Source of the DNA: Pseudomonas sp. LFM046
GTDB taxonomy: Bacteria > Pseudomonadota > Gammaproteobacteria > Pseudomonadales > Pseudomonadaceae
Assembly (NCBI RefSeq): GCF_000949385.2
Contig: NZ_JYKO02000001.1
Location: 372,001-436,000, forward strand
Length of the DNA stretch: 64,000 nucleotides
Reading direction: 5' to 3'
The position numbers were made by a program, and so were the translations under genes. This document shows positions 3,448 through 15,090 of the stretch, piece after piece; position 1 is the first letter of the stretch, and every line of letters begins with the position of its first letter. Below the pieces are notes generated by a model, which had not been told where the DNA came from, did no database searches, and saw only the letters and a list, made by a program, of their open reading frames with translations.

Positions 3448-4311
3448 ATGAACCTGTTCCAGCTCCGCGCCTTCGATGCGGTGGTCCGCGAGGGCAGTTT
3501 CACCCGCGCCGCCGCGCGCCTGTGCATCAGCCAGCCGGCGGTGACCGGGCACATCAAGGCGCTGGAAGAGCACTACCAGGTGCGTCTGTTGCGCCGCTCC
3601 GCGCGGCAGGTGGAAGCCACCGAACTGGGCCGGCGCCTGGCCGCCATCAGCCACCAGCTGTTCGCCCTGGCGGAACAGGCCGAGGACCTGCTGGACACCA
3701 GCCAGGCCTTGGAGTCCGGTCGCCTGGACCTCGCCGCCGACAGCCCGCATCTGGTGATGCCGCTGCTGGCGCGAATGCGCGAGCGCCACCCCGGCGTCAC
3801 CATCAACCTGCGCCTGGGCAATACCCAGGAAACCCTCGCCGCGCTGAACGGCGAGCGGGTGGACCTGGCGCTGATCAGTGACATGACCGAACGTCCCGGC
3901 CTTCGCCTGCAGCCCATTGGCGAGGCGCGCCTGTGCCTGTTGCTGCCGGCTGGGCACCCCTGGGTGGGAAAACGCAAGGACGTCACCCTGCAGGCGCTTC
4001 GCGGTGAGGTGCTGCTGCAACGCGAGCCCGCCTCTCTGACGCGCCGCACCTTCGAGAAAGCGTGCAGCGAACAGGGCCTGGAACTGCGCGCGGCGCTGGA
4101 ACTGAACAGCCGCGAGGCGGTGATCGAGGCGGTGGCGGCGGGGCTCGGGGTGAGCATCGTGTATTCGCTGGAGGTGCCGCGCGACCCACGGGTAGTGGCG
4201 TTGCCGCTGAAGGGCGAAGGGCTGGTCAGCCGGCACTATCTGGCGTGTCTGGAGAGTTATGCGGAACTGCGGGTGGTGCGGGCGTTCTTCGAGGTGGCGG
4301 CGCAATCGTAG
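3448..4311 (+). CDS. LysR-family transcriptional regulator
   Basis: The protein starts MNLFQLRAFDAVVREGSFTR, a canonical LysR winged-helix N-terminus (residues 1-60), followed by a type-2 periplasmic-binding-like effector domain (about 90-285). Total length is 287 residues, normal for the family. A GTG two codons upstream (3442) is an alternative start. The gene is divergent from the EamA exporter at 2483-3331, and the gap between them contains an ATTC...GAAT dyad near 3401-3425 that could be an operator. The stop codon lies inside the left arm of a long REP-like inverted repeat. The effector is unknown. Confidence 0.88.
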   Translation: MNLFQLRAFDAVVREGSFTRAAARLCISQPAVTGHIKALEEHYQVRLLRRSARQVEATELGRRLAAISHQLFALAEQAEDLLDTSQALESGRLDLAADSPHLVMPLLARMRERHPGVTINLRLGNTQETLAALNGERVDLALISDMTERPGLRLQPIGEARLCLLLPAGHPWVGKRKDVTLQALRGEVLLQREPASLTRRTFEKACSEQGLELRAALELNSREAVIEAVAAGLGVSIVYSLEVPRDPRVVALPLKGEGLVSRHYLACLESYAELRVVRAFFEVAAQS

Positions 4312-12637: not shown

Positions 12638-13375
12638 ATGAAGATCCAACTCATCAACCCCAACACCAGCATCGCCATGACCGCCGGCATCGCCGAGGCC
12701 GCGCGGCCCCTGCTGCGCCCCGGCAACCAGTTGCTGGCGGTGACCAATAGCGCCGGCCCGGCTTCCATCGAGGGGCACTATGACGAGGCGCTGAGCGTGC
12801 CCGGACTGCTCCAGGCCATTCGCGATGGCGAGCAGGACGGCGCCGAAGGGCATGTGATCGCCTGCTTCGGCGATCCGGGGTTGCTGGCGGCGCGGGAGAT
12901 CGCCCGCCATCCGGTGATCGGCATCGCCGAAGCGGCCATGCATCTCGCCACGTGGGTCGCCACGGGGTTCAGCATCGTCACCACCCTGGGCCGCACCAAG
13001 GTCATCGCCCGCCACCTGGTGGAGCGCTACGGTTTCCATCAACACTGCCGAGGCATTCATGCCGTTGAGATTCCGGTGCTGGCGCTGGACGAGGACCCGC
13101 AGGGCCTGTTCCGCATCATGCGCGACGCCTGCCGGGACGCGCTGGAAAGGGACGAATCCGGCGCCATCGTCCTCGGCTGCGCTGGCATGAGCCACCTGGC
13201 GCAGGGGCTGCAGGAAGAACTGGGCGTTCCGGTGATCGATGGCGTCAGCGCTGCGTTGAAGATGGTGGAGATGCTCGGGGAGTTGCGCCTGTCCACCAGC
13301 AAGCGCGGCGATCTGGATTTCCCCCTGCCCAAGCCTTATGCGGGGTTTCTGCGAGGCTTTGCGGTAGGCGCCTGA
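12638..13375 (+). CDS. hydantoin / Asp-Glu racemase family enzyme
   Basis: The 245-residue protein starts MKIQLINPNTS, a hallmark of the hydantoin-racemase branch of the Asp/Glu racemase superfamily. The two catalytic cysteines are visible in ACFGDPGL and VLGCAGM. Members racemise hydantoins or allantoin, or isomerise maleate. It is co-transcribed with the GntR regulator (7-base gap) and opposite the two amidohydrolases. That pairing suggests a ring or carbamoyl-type nitrogen compound whose enantiomers must be interconverted, but no hydantoinase or allantoinase proper is present. Confidence 0.83.
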   Translation: MKIQLINPNTSIAMTAGIAEAARPLLRPGNQLLAVTNSAGPASIEGHYDEALSVPGLLQAIRDGEQDGAEGHVIACFGDPGLLAAREIARHPVIGIAEAAMHLATWVATGFSIVTTLGRTKVIARHLVERYGFHQHCRGIHAVEIPVLALDEDPQGLFRIMRDACRDALERDESGAIVLGCAGMSHLAQGLQEELGVPVIDGVSAALKMVEMLGELRLSTSKRGDLDFPLPKPYAGFLRGFAVGA

Positions 13376-13385
13376 AGCGCCTACC
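13363..13385 (+). terminator. hairpin over the racemase stop codon
   Basis: A perfect 9-base inverted repeat GGTAGGCGC/GCGCCTACC (13363-13371, 13377-13385) encloses the TGA stop of the racemase-family gene. There is no T-run, so it is a REP-like 3' end stabiliser or a weak terminator. Confidence 0.45.
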
Positions 13386-13411
13386 CCCTGGGGCGATTCT
13401 CTTGTAGGGGC

Positions 13412-13882
13412 CTATGGCAGCAGCATGTGGCCCTTCCCCTCAAACAACCCCGCCACATCCGCTACCCGCACCCAACTCCGCCCCTGCCATTCCATCAGGC
13501 TGTATTCCTTCCCCTGCCACGCCACCCGGCGCTGCTTGGGGAGTTGCGGATTGGCCGCCGAGCGCAGGCCGGTCACCACCTCGCCGGTGAACCACTGGCG
13601 CAGGCCGCGGTGTTCGGGGTGGTAGAAATTCACCCGCAGCAACTCGCAGACGGCGCTTTCGCTGAACAGCAGCTCCTGCTCGACGTCACCCTGGTGGTTC
13701 TCCAGGCGCTCGTGGCGCCATTGGTCCGGGTCCAGCTTGCGGGGCAGGCGGTCATCGACGTGGCAGTTGGTCAGTGGCCCCAGGTCGCGGGCCACCACCC
13801 AGGCCTGATCGTCGATCAGCAGGGCACGAAGCGCGCGGTGATGGCGGTGGAAAACGGTGGGAACGTAATAGTCGTGGGACAT
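13412..13882 (-). CDS. BRO-N domain (phage antirepressor-like) protein
   Basis: This is a 156-residue protein whose central region (RALLIDDQAWVVARDLGPLT, then LLFSESAVCELLRV) matches the BRO-N/antirepressor fold found in prophage antirepressors. The ATG at 13882 is supported by a strong AAGGAGTC; upstream codons in frame run through a structured leader and are unlikely to be translated. No integrase, cro/cI or phage structural gene is nearby, so it is an orphan. Its 5' untranslated region folds into a multi-stem RNA on the coding strand. The function is unknown; a DNA-binding or antirepressor role is inferred from the domain only. Confidence 0.75.
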   Translation of the reverse strand: MSHDYYVPTVFHRHHRALRALLIDDQAWVVARDLGPLTNCHVDDRLPRKLDPDQWRHERLENHQGDVEQELLFSESAVCELLRVNFYHPEHRGLRQWFTGEVVTGLRSAANPQLPKQRRVAWQGKEYSLMEWQGRSWVRVADVAGLFEGKGHMLLP

Positions 13883-14214
13883 GTGCAGACTCCTTCCTGG
13901 TATCGGGGAGCCGTCACCTGATCCTTGTTGCATGAGGGTGGCGGACCGTACGAGGTGTGGAATACCGGCGCAGCAGGAACCGGCGGGCTTGCGCCCCCTC
14001 GCACGGTCCGCCATAGACGGCCAGGCTCATCGAACAAGACTTCCATTCGCTGACCTTGCTTATGGCGTTTGTGCCTTTCCACTGCATCGGGATTCCACTC
14101 CCGGTCACACCCGAGGGCATGACGGGGGGAGACGCTACAGAGCGGCCCTGTAGGCCAGCAATGACCGGCCGCAGTAGGAATTCTCGGAAGAATGAGGGCG
14201 CCGAATCACGCGCT
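13883..14214. other. 332-base intergenic region upstream of the BRO-N gene
   Basis: No credible gene is seen. It holds the structured leader (13940-14012), a 6-base CTACAG/CTGTAG hairpin at 14135-14153 that may end the SDR transcript, and otherwise unremarkable sequence. Confidence 0.5.
13940..14012 (-). ncRNA. structured 5' leader RNA (candidate cis-regulatory motif)
   Basis: On the minus strand the arms 14012-13997 and 13955-13940 form a 16-pair stem whose only non-Watson-Crick pair is G-U; on the plus strand the same position would be an A-C mismatch, so the minus-strand RNA is favoured. The stem encloses a GGGC-GCAA-GCCC hairpin with a GNRA tetraloop (13996-13985) and a possible CCGG/CCGG stem (13983-13980, 13968-13965). 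It ends 58 bases before the BRO-N start codon. I do not recognise a named RNA family. Confidence 0.45.
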
Positions 14215-15090
14215 TCAGCCCGACACGGCCTCGATACCGGGGTGCGCATAGGGTGGCAGGACCGGAGCCGGCAAGGTCTCGCGCCCGTCCAGGGAGTGGA
14301 CCGTCAGCCCGGCGGAGAGCGGGAAGTGCAGGCTGTGGGTCAGCAGCCCCGTGCGTTCCCGGGCAGGCAGATGACAGAGGGCCAGCGCTGTCTCGGCCAG
14401 GTATTCCACCCGCTCGGTGGGGTAGTCGTCGGGGATGTAGCGGGCGGCACCTGGCGTGAGGATCGCGGTGCTCGGCGCCACCAGATTGACCGCAATATTG
14501 TCGGCCTCCAGTTCGGCGGCCAGCCCCTGGGTGAAGCGCGCCAGTGCCGCCTTGGCCGCGGCATAGACGCTGATGCCGCCCAGTCGCGCGAAGTCGTCGT
14601 AGGGTTTCAGCGGTGGAAGGGCGGTGACCGAGCCGAGGTTGACGATCCAGCCGGCGCCGCGCTGGCGCATGAGTGGGATCGCGGCCTTGCTCAGGGCAAA
14701 GGGAATACGCAGGTAGTGGTCCAGGGTGCGTTCGTACACCTCCAGCGGCATGTCCTCCACGCGGCAGTAGTCCGCCACACCGGCATTGTTCACCAGGATG
14801 TCCAGCCCGCCTGCCACCTGGGCGGCGCGAGCCGGCAGCGCATCGCGCTCGGCGGCGTTGCAGAGGTCCACGGCGAGCGGGATCGCGCGGCCACCGGCCG
14901 CTTCGATCAGGGCGACGGTTTCGGCCAGGGTCCCGCTCATGCTCGCCGAATGCTCCAGGCTGCGGGCCGCGACGACCACGGTGGCGCCTTCGCTGGCCAG
15001 ACGCTGGGCGATGGCGCGGCCGATGCCACGGCTGGCGCCGGTTACCAGTGCGACCTTGCCGGCCAGCATGGGTGTACGGGGATGGGACAT
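14215..15090 (-). CDS. short-chain dehydrogenase/reductase (SDR)
   Basis: This is a 291-residue NAD(P)-dependent oxidoreductase with the cofactor motif TGASRGIG (17-24), the NNAG structural motif and a YAAAK catalytic Tyr-Lys pair preceded by a Ser in NLGSVTA. The C-terminal extension of about 30 residues after the Rossmann fold is longer than in minimal SDRs. It is encoded downstream of an AraC-family regulator on the same strand, 95 bases away, suggesting that regulator controls it. The substrate (an alcohol, ketone or acyl chain) cannot be determined. Confidence 0.85.
   Translation of the reverse strand: MSHPRTPMLAGKVALVTGASRGIGRAIAQRLASEGATVVVAARSLEHSASMSGTLAETVALIEAAGGRAIPLAVDLCNAAERDALPARAAQVAGGLDILVNNAGVADYCRVEDMPLEVYERTLDHYLRIPFALSKAAIPLMRQRGAGWIVNLGSVTALPPLKPYDDFARLGGISVYAAAKAALARFTQGLAAELEADNIAVNLVAPSTAILTPGAARYIPDDYPTERVEYLAETALALCHLPARERTGLLTHSLHFPLSAGLTVHSLDGRETLPAPVLPPYAHPGIEAVSG

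Follow-up and report, generated by a model that had tools for sequence, protein, structure and literature searches.

A chromosomal C4 antisense RNA that has changed together with its own leader upstream of a BRO-N gene in Pseudomonas sp. LFM046

With what does a phage-type antisense RNA pair when it resides in a bacterial chromosome? At a locus within a 64,000-nt window of Pseudomonas sp. LFM046 (contig NZ_JYKO02000001.1, 372,001-436,000; all coordinates below are positions in that window), the conserved partner of a C4 RNA in its ortholog group is the RNA's own leader, and not the ribosome site blocked by classical C4. We consider it probable that this chromosomal locus embodies leader-targeting C4 antisense control of a BRO-N gene with a specificity of its own. 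The RNA family is known; the wiring of C4 at this locus is new.

The RNA and its fold

The original prediction of a structured RNA at 13940-14012 has stood up well. The minus-strand fold of that stretch is at -50.8 kcal/mol, compared with a mean of -31.6 (sd 3.6) for 200 dinucleotide shuffles (z -5.38), none of which was as low, and the 16-pair outer stem, the GCAA-capped hairpin and the third stem that had been described are all present. Read on the minus strand, the sole weak pair of the outer stem is a G-U, in place of which one ortholog (L194) has G-C, as expected of an RNA. The proposed extent of 73 bases falls short: the C4 model is longer (13934-14018) and the unit, including its leader sites, extends up to about 14136. 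Similarly, the GNRA cap exists here but is not a fixed feature: inspection by eye found a GNRA tetraloop in six of the 11 orthologs and none in five.

An Rfam search and a search for covariation in homologues had been proposed as checks. The former yields C4 antisense RNA (RF01695) on the minus strand at 70.1 bits, with a gathering score of 45, an E value of 1.3e-11 and coverage of model positions 1-87 of 87. The folded RNA is a member of this known phage-type antisense family; a new RNA class is ruled out by the match, and what had been suggested as a possible new cis-regulatory RNA is instead an antisense RNA with sequence-specific partners and not a plain cis-regulatory leader. C4 serves phages P1 and P7 as their immunity RNA. 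As described in PMC5320573, RNase P processes it, and its segments a' and b' pair with the target message. The family description in Weinberg et al. 2010 (PMC2864571) places C4 in Proteobacteria and phages, alongside a separate motif, c4-a1b1, which is RF03163 in Rfam.

Covariation was found over the 153 distinct sequences among 168 C4 RNAs, drawn from the LFM046 genus plus 19 loci from other genera. Over the 16 pairs tested, 96.8% of outer-stem (P1) pairs are standard, versus 77.0% (sd 0.5) with the letters of the 3' strand shuffled, and 12 of the 16 appear as three, four or five different standard types. Selection acts on the structure of the outer stem, and the earlier view of an RNA under selection and linked to a BRO-N gene is borne out.

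Table 1. Features of the C4 and BRO-N unit, with positions in the 64,000-nt window
Feature	Position	Strand	Basis	Remarks
C4 antisense RNA (RF01695), whole model	13934..14018	minus	Rfam score	
P1 outer stem, 5' strand (16 pairs)	13997..14012	minus	fold	non-consensus fraction 0.00 in 11 orthologs
P2 hairpin, GCAA loop	13985..13996	minus	fold	loop variable among orthologs
P3 loop, variable targeting segment a'	13969..13979	minus		non-consensus fraction 0.42 (11 orthologs); co-varies with a1
b' segment, ATTCCAC	13957..13963	minus		complementary to b1; P3 3' arm plus b' non-consensus 0.03 (11 orthologs)
P1 outer stem, 3' strand	13940..13955	minus	fold	
b1, conserved leader hairpin, CCGGGAGTGGAATCCCG	14088..14104	minus		loop complementary to b'; non-consensus fraction 0.02
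a1, variable leader site	14076..14088	minus		complementary to P3 loop; imperfect and bulged in LFM046 copy
First leader hairpin	14104..14123	minus	alignment	within a1b1 model region
Promoter-like block	14132..14161	minus		TTGCTG, 18 nt, TAGCGT; inverted repeat CTACAG..CTGTAG at 14135-14153
Shine-Dalgarno region of BRO-N, AGGAAGGAG	13890..13898	minus		conserved; unmatched to loop across orthologs
BRO-N gene, 156 aa + stop	13412..13882	minus	ORF	

Loop and leader change together

RF01695 is present in 11 of 11 orthologs (46.1-70.1 bits), and the variation among them is very unevenly spread over the columns: 0.00-0.01 in P1, 0.02 in b1, 0.03 in b' and 0.02 in the Shine-Dalgarno (SD) region, 0.42 in the loop and 0.39 in a1. 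Do the two variable parts vary jointly? On an ungapped pairing score devised for the present analysis, with rows that are partly dependent as the loops are related, the 11 loops and the a1 windows of their own loci sum to 252.5, versus 150.7 (sd 15.5) when permuted, a value reached by 0 of 20,000 permutations; with two near-duplicates removed, the nine remaining orthologs still give 0 of 20,000. Leader-C4 energies from RNAduplex concur, at -35.5 kcal/mol for own leaders versus -24.5 for those of others (0 of 20,000), own leader ranking first in eight of the 11 and second in three. Four loci, L047-L050, apparently the same sequences as L190, L192, L194 and L193 since their letters are identical, were excluded from permutation tests.

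The region from C4 down to the start codon behaves otherwise. Across the 11 orthologs its score with the loop is reached by 3,219 of 20,000 permutations, and the RNAduplex energy of C4 with it (-20.7 own, -21.7 others) by 18,637 of 20,000, so that neither measure gives a match. As the loop follows a1 and not the start region, leader and C4 have kept changing together at the locus, and the lack of any own-over-other match to the start region in the 11 orthologs means that the classical ribosome-site target has been lost here. In keeping with this, a' and b' are complementary to a1 and b1 upstream in the 11 orthologs, the LFM046 copy with the help of a bulge, and the phage P1 mode of repression, with a' and b' facing a2 and b2 at the start of the next gene, was not found in them.

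Might the RNA all the same act classically, blocking translation by pairing with the SD region of BRO-N? That would fit the family at large, where 112 of the 144 parsed C4 loci show, at the 5% level, a match to the start region beside them, and in the LFM046 copy a 6-nt match, CAGGAA, adjoins the SD. However, an SD region that is nearly invariant, a loop that is the most variable part, and the two null permutation results just given make this a very unlikely account of the ortholog group.

The LFM046 copy is itself the awkward member. Ungapped, its loop scores 16.5 with its own a1 and 24.0 with the best of the other leaders; by RNAduplex its own leader, at -36.0 versus a mean of -24.1 for other leaders, ranks second of 11, the leader from G015 fitting better ungapped and slightly better by energy (-36.8 vs -36.0). 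On the ungapped score it also falls, at the 5% level, into the group of 16 loci (of 144) without a match to either site. These features, like the CAGGAA match, count against leader targeting in this particular copy, which may be in transition or decaying.

The leader and a possible mechanism

The 15-base core of b1 occurs only once in the genome, even with up to one mismatch allowed. The c4-a1b1 model (RF03163) matches 14084-14136 at 17.2 bits, under its cut-off of 46.7. Further upstream, the promoter-like block is, by eye, alike in most of the 11 orthologs; as a consensus scan of the minus strand over 13350-14300 found no sigma-70 promoter, the promoter at 14132-14161 is one that we infer. 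Terminator-like sites are absent from the minus strand of the same interval, where shuffles average 0.4; the plus strand has one, at 13378-13395, directly past the racemase gene. The stretch 14104-14190 is a block for which most of the 11 orthologs have a similar sequence. Its inverted repeat, which spans the promoter-like spacer, is possibly a repressor site, and the loss of similarity past this block marks the left edge of the unit.

How might the unit work? A leader transcript, probably starting near 14125, would carry b1-a1 (14104-14076), then C4 and then the BRO-N message. C4 would probably be cut from it by RNase P, by analogy with what is described for phage P1. Once freed, it could use b' and the variable P3 loop to bind b1-a1 on leader RNAs newly made at its own locus. 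The pairing would set the amount of BRO-N and most likely lower it, by ending the transcript ahead of BRO-N. The loop and leader site drifting together would give each locus a private specificity that sets it off from the cell's other C4 copies, the ribosome-site target having been dropped in this ortholog group. The transcript start, the RNase P cutting, the direction and means of control, and the target of BRO-N itself are what we infer.

Control could instead run the other way. The leader site could be an anti-C4, a sponge or switch like IsrK of Gifsy-1, whose pairing would free translation and so activate BRO-N. As the account of that prophage in PMC4825925 has it, the 77-nt IsrK supplied in trans raises anrP translation ~140-fold via a coupled small ORF. 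In satellite phage phiAH14b and at another C4 locus (L149), matches to the IsrK and a1b1 models coincide upstream, most of them scoring under the cut-off. At the LFM046 locus, however, the isrK model reaches only 11.3 bits, with nothing IsrK-like above that, and as the match of C4 to the start region is lost in the 11 orthologs there is little left for a sponge to free. Activation of this kind is in our judgement rather unlikely, and control by C4 of its own leader remains the preferred reading.

The BRO-N gene

A 200-aa frame from an ATG at 14014, inside C4, was rejected as the coding sequence: the ATG at 13882 follows the conserved SD and starts the conserved protein. Orthologs occur in 11 of the 18 genomes of the genus, LFM046 included, the other ten being 69-85% identical to the LFM046 protein. 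Nine of ten aligned members match Pfam Bro-N (PF02498) at E <=1 (best 6.4e-07); the exception is the LFM046 protein, which matches 0 families and is assigned to Bro-N via its relatives. The frame is open in 11 of 11 orthologs, L195 having a different, longer end, and over 55 ortholog pairs dN/dS reaches at most 0.40, the median being 0.27; BRO-N is under purifying selection.

Nor is the gene the orphan that it had been taken for, since matches to its protein number 1 to 21 per genome in the 18 genomes. At the 30 best-matching BRO-N loci, C4 is found in the 11 orthologs and 8 more, sRNA-Xcc1, to which we return below, in 9, and neither in 2 (E <=0.01), so that one or the other RNA lies directly upstream in 28 of the 30; the two without either look, by eye, decayed. 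Among named organisms, the protein has its closest relatives in Pseudomonas alcaligenes MRY13-0052, P. resinovorans, P. otitidis and Pseudomonas sp. BN411. From phages, tblastn gave 29 records with E from 1e-4, all below 60% identity (26-29% among the 20 matches listed) and several annotated as antirepressor; none covers 80% of the query, and direct phage relatives were rejected. A search by two short peptide patterns found no BRO-N relatives encoded in viral contigs. An AlphaFold model (5 sequences) has a pLDDT of 63.9, and with it Foldseek against the PDB returned nothing below E 0.25.

Genomic setting

In the 6.0-Mb LFM046 genome the locus lies between a racemase gene and tRNA-Met. Five of the seven neighbouring proteins scanned have a Pfam family (racemase, GntR, short-chain dehydrogenase (SDR), AraC and Dabb); among the seven, no phage family was found and nothing indicates location in a phage immunity operon. 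The G016 genome lacks the ortholog, and there 151 nt separate tRNA-Met from the racemase gene, from which it follows that the unit occupies a variable interval next to the tRNA. Six orthologs adjoin the racemase gene and the G008 copy is ~4 kb from tRNA-Met; in G013, G017, G009 and G004 neither landmark lies within ~7-8 kb of the ortholog. The suggestion that the RNA is part of a mobile element is thus possible as to origin, in view of this variable interval and of the C4 of 89 bits in phiAH14b, but has no counterpart in the seven neighbours.

In that satellite phage (L215, KU708005.1), positions 3839-4250 hold an isrK-like match (48.8 bits, cut-off 50), an a1b1-like match (28.8, cut-off 46.7) and the C4, and these RNAs precede a run of small overlapping ORFs leading to a primase. 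A satellite of this type is a possible source of the chromosomal modules.

Is the C4 at the LFM046 locus an immunity RNA, there to silence incoming phages or satellites with a matching target, with BRO-N a secondary matter? C4 underlies the heteroimmunity of P1 and P7, as set out in the relevant part of PMC12197685, the phiAH14b satellite carries a strong C4, and fast drift of specificity suits immunity types. We nevertheless think it quite improbable, given the purifying selection on BRO-N and two exact searches, which miss variants: an 18-base stem stretch is in 0 viral contigs, and the sole viral contig with the exact 17-base b1 (L292) has no Rfam match at E <=0.01. Least probable of all is that the locus is a decaying phage or satellite remnant devoid of present function. 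The neighbours without phage families, the imperfect a1 of the LFM046 copy and the early stop in the BRO-N frame of L045, another copy in the same genome, would suit decay, but a stem near-invariant over 11 orthologs, an open frame in every one of them with the low dN/dS given above, and a loop and a1 that are still co-changing do not.

C4 across the genus and beyond

The 18 genomes of the genus have 203 C4 matches, 3 to 25 per genome; in the wider family C4 is present in at least 123 of 198 genomes, up to 21 candidates having been scored per genome, and it is absent from 14 of 14 control genomes. The 149 genus matches that were listed were analysed, two near contig ends and 52 others being left out, and five further orthologous or related C4 sets were counted separately from the 149. 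Five of the 149 loops could not be parsed, leaving 144 loci.

Here the start region comes back into the picture. The 82 distinct loops score 19.7 with their own start region (+20 to +60 after C4), versus 12.6 permuted, and 19.6 with their own upstream stretch (-110 to -40), versus 14.1 permuted, each with 0 of 20,000 permutations; two control windows were null (6,605 and 16,733 of 20,000). Likewise, b' (29 distinct) matches its own upstream and downstream regions at 0 of 20,000 each, with null control windows (17,985 and 9,337 of 20,000). Judged at the 5% level, both sites are matched in 73 of the 144 loci; in 39 the match is confined to the start and in 16 to the upstream site, and the remaining 16 have no match to either. 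The chromosomal C4 RNAs are many private RNA-gene pairs scattered through these bacterial chromosomes.

The genes that follow them are diverse. A BRO-N-like frame lies within 900 nt in 93 of the 149 loci and is lacking there in 56; at a number of the latter, among those listed, a short ORF shares 4 or 8 bases with the small gene behind it. In L033 and L125 (and, by eye, L095) BRO-N has seemingly shrunk to a leader peptide of 21-27 aa with its ends kept, and in the first two the reduced BRO-N overlaps a second gene of ~85 aa by 4 bases, as if translational coupling were all that was needed. In other genera of the family, DUF3077 proteins follow C4 in L174 and L184 (108 and 113 bits; G045 and G089), and weaker DUF3077/DUF6124 matches lie behind C4 and its target site in L171 and L168. 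Locus L149 has a phage-like order of isrK-like RNA (49.4 bits, cut-off 50), a1b1 (47.0, cut-off 46.7), C4, a 61-aa ORF and a Bro-N protein (86.6), an order that L157 resembles with both isrK-like and a1b1 matches under cut-off. Several of the small proteins tested had no match in Pfam, NCBIfam or PHROGs. Three genomes have pairs of C4 copies ~280 nt apart (G017:C1:5504468/5504753, G009:C1:1090002/1090283 and G008:C237:73375/73656).

sRNA-Xcc1 in the same slot

The second RNA found upstream of BRO-N, sRNA-Xcc1 (RF02221), occurs in 15 of the 18 genus genomes (27 matches, 25 over cut-off) and, in a sample of 229 genomes of the class, in 19 (12 over cut-off). Of its 59 distinct matches four are without a locus and one was dropped for its short flank. 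The variable segment, taken as 34 distinct loops of which some come from matches below cut-off, scores 19.3 with its own downstream start region, versus 14.5 permuted, and 19.5 with its own upstream region, versus 16.1, with 0 of 20,000 permutations in both cases; outside the genus (23 loops) the counts are 0 for the start region and 2 for the upstream region of 20,000. This pairing rests on permutations, the far control windows belonging to the C4 tests. The loci with private pairing are L197-L201, L211-L214 and L237-L291, where the next genes include those for BRO-N, SymE and small proteins; SymE_toxin (PF08845) follows the RNA three times (52.9, 40.3 and 42.6 bits), at loci belonging to two other genera of the class.

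Like C4, sRNA-Xcc1 occupies the slot before related BRO-N genes and shows the same private pairing; among the predicted single-sequence folds listed, several have an outer stem with two inner hairpins and others differ. It is a separate Rfam family with no clan given. Homology by sequence was rejected: at those loci there is no C4 match at E <=0.01, and so likeness is claimed and not kinship. Its presence upstream of symE in Xanthomonas integron cassettes has already been noted, in the cassette descriptions of PMC12444791, and PMC12189769 is the single paper in the literature searched that was listed with the accessions of both RF01695 and RF02221. The portion of the open-access literature covered by our searches links sRNA-Xcc1 neither to C4 nor to pairing with an adjacent start site.

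Comparison with known systems

What is gained? Chromosomal C4 RNAs acquire concrete, testable partners in the adjacent leader and start region. So does sRNA-Xcc1, for which the targets given earlier, in such reports as our searches covered, were predicted by software only. The poorly known DUF3077, DUF6124 and chromosomal BRO-N families become tied to one RNA switch, and the orthologs, in which loop and target have changed rapidly and jointly, offer a natural experiment on the way an antisense pair shifts its specificity and keeps pairing. A broader notion, which we offer tentatively and hold to be somewhat less than an even bet, is that C4 and sRNA-Xcc1 represent two versions of a single general control module. 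One transcript would bear the target site, a three-stem antisense RNA whose loop changes fast, and an exchangeable effector (BRO-N, SymE toxin, small proteins of DUF3077/DUF6124 type or others), often by way of a short overlapping leader ORF. Chromosomes of Pseudomonas relatives, with up to 25 C4 and several sRNA-Xcc1 modules, would then rely on private loop-target pairs to keep these separate, and the modules would serve as devices of a toxin-antitoxin-like or phage-sensing kind. The likeness to type I toxin-antitoxin systems is by analogy only, via the SymE_toxin behind sRNA-Xcc1 in three loci.

In phage P1 the operon order is c4-icd-ant. With the C4 of P1 and P7 the LFM046 locus shares the three-stem RNA, targeting by a variable loop and b', the leader target a1b1 (RF03163) and an antirepressor-type gene downstream; it differs in having no phage genes found around it, no icd-like leader ORF, multiple copies with private specificities, and, in the ortholog group, a start-region target that has been lost. 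With isrK-orf45-anrP of Gifsy-1 in Salmonella, as described in the portion of PMC4825925 devoted to that operon, it has in common an upstream RNA site and an antirepressor-type gene, and the coupling of orf45 to anrP resembles the short ORFs that overlap the next gene at a number of genus C4 loci. Gifsy-1 is a prophage, unlike the LFM046 locus, and the link between it and C4 is drawn in the present analysis, C4 terms being absent from the available text of that paper. The Group 1 C4-like sRNAs of Acinetobacter baumannii likewise have many copies per genome and a variable target segment, and their RNA-seq coverage suggests RNase P-type processing (PMC5320573, in its sections on these sRNAs). 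Those sections name no targets, whereas here the RNA's own leader and the adjacent start region are the partners.
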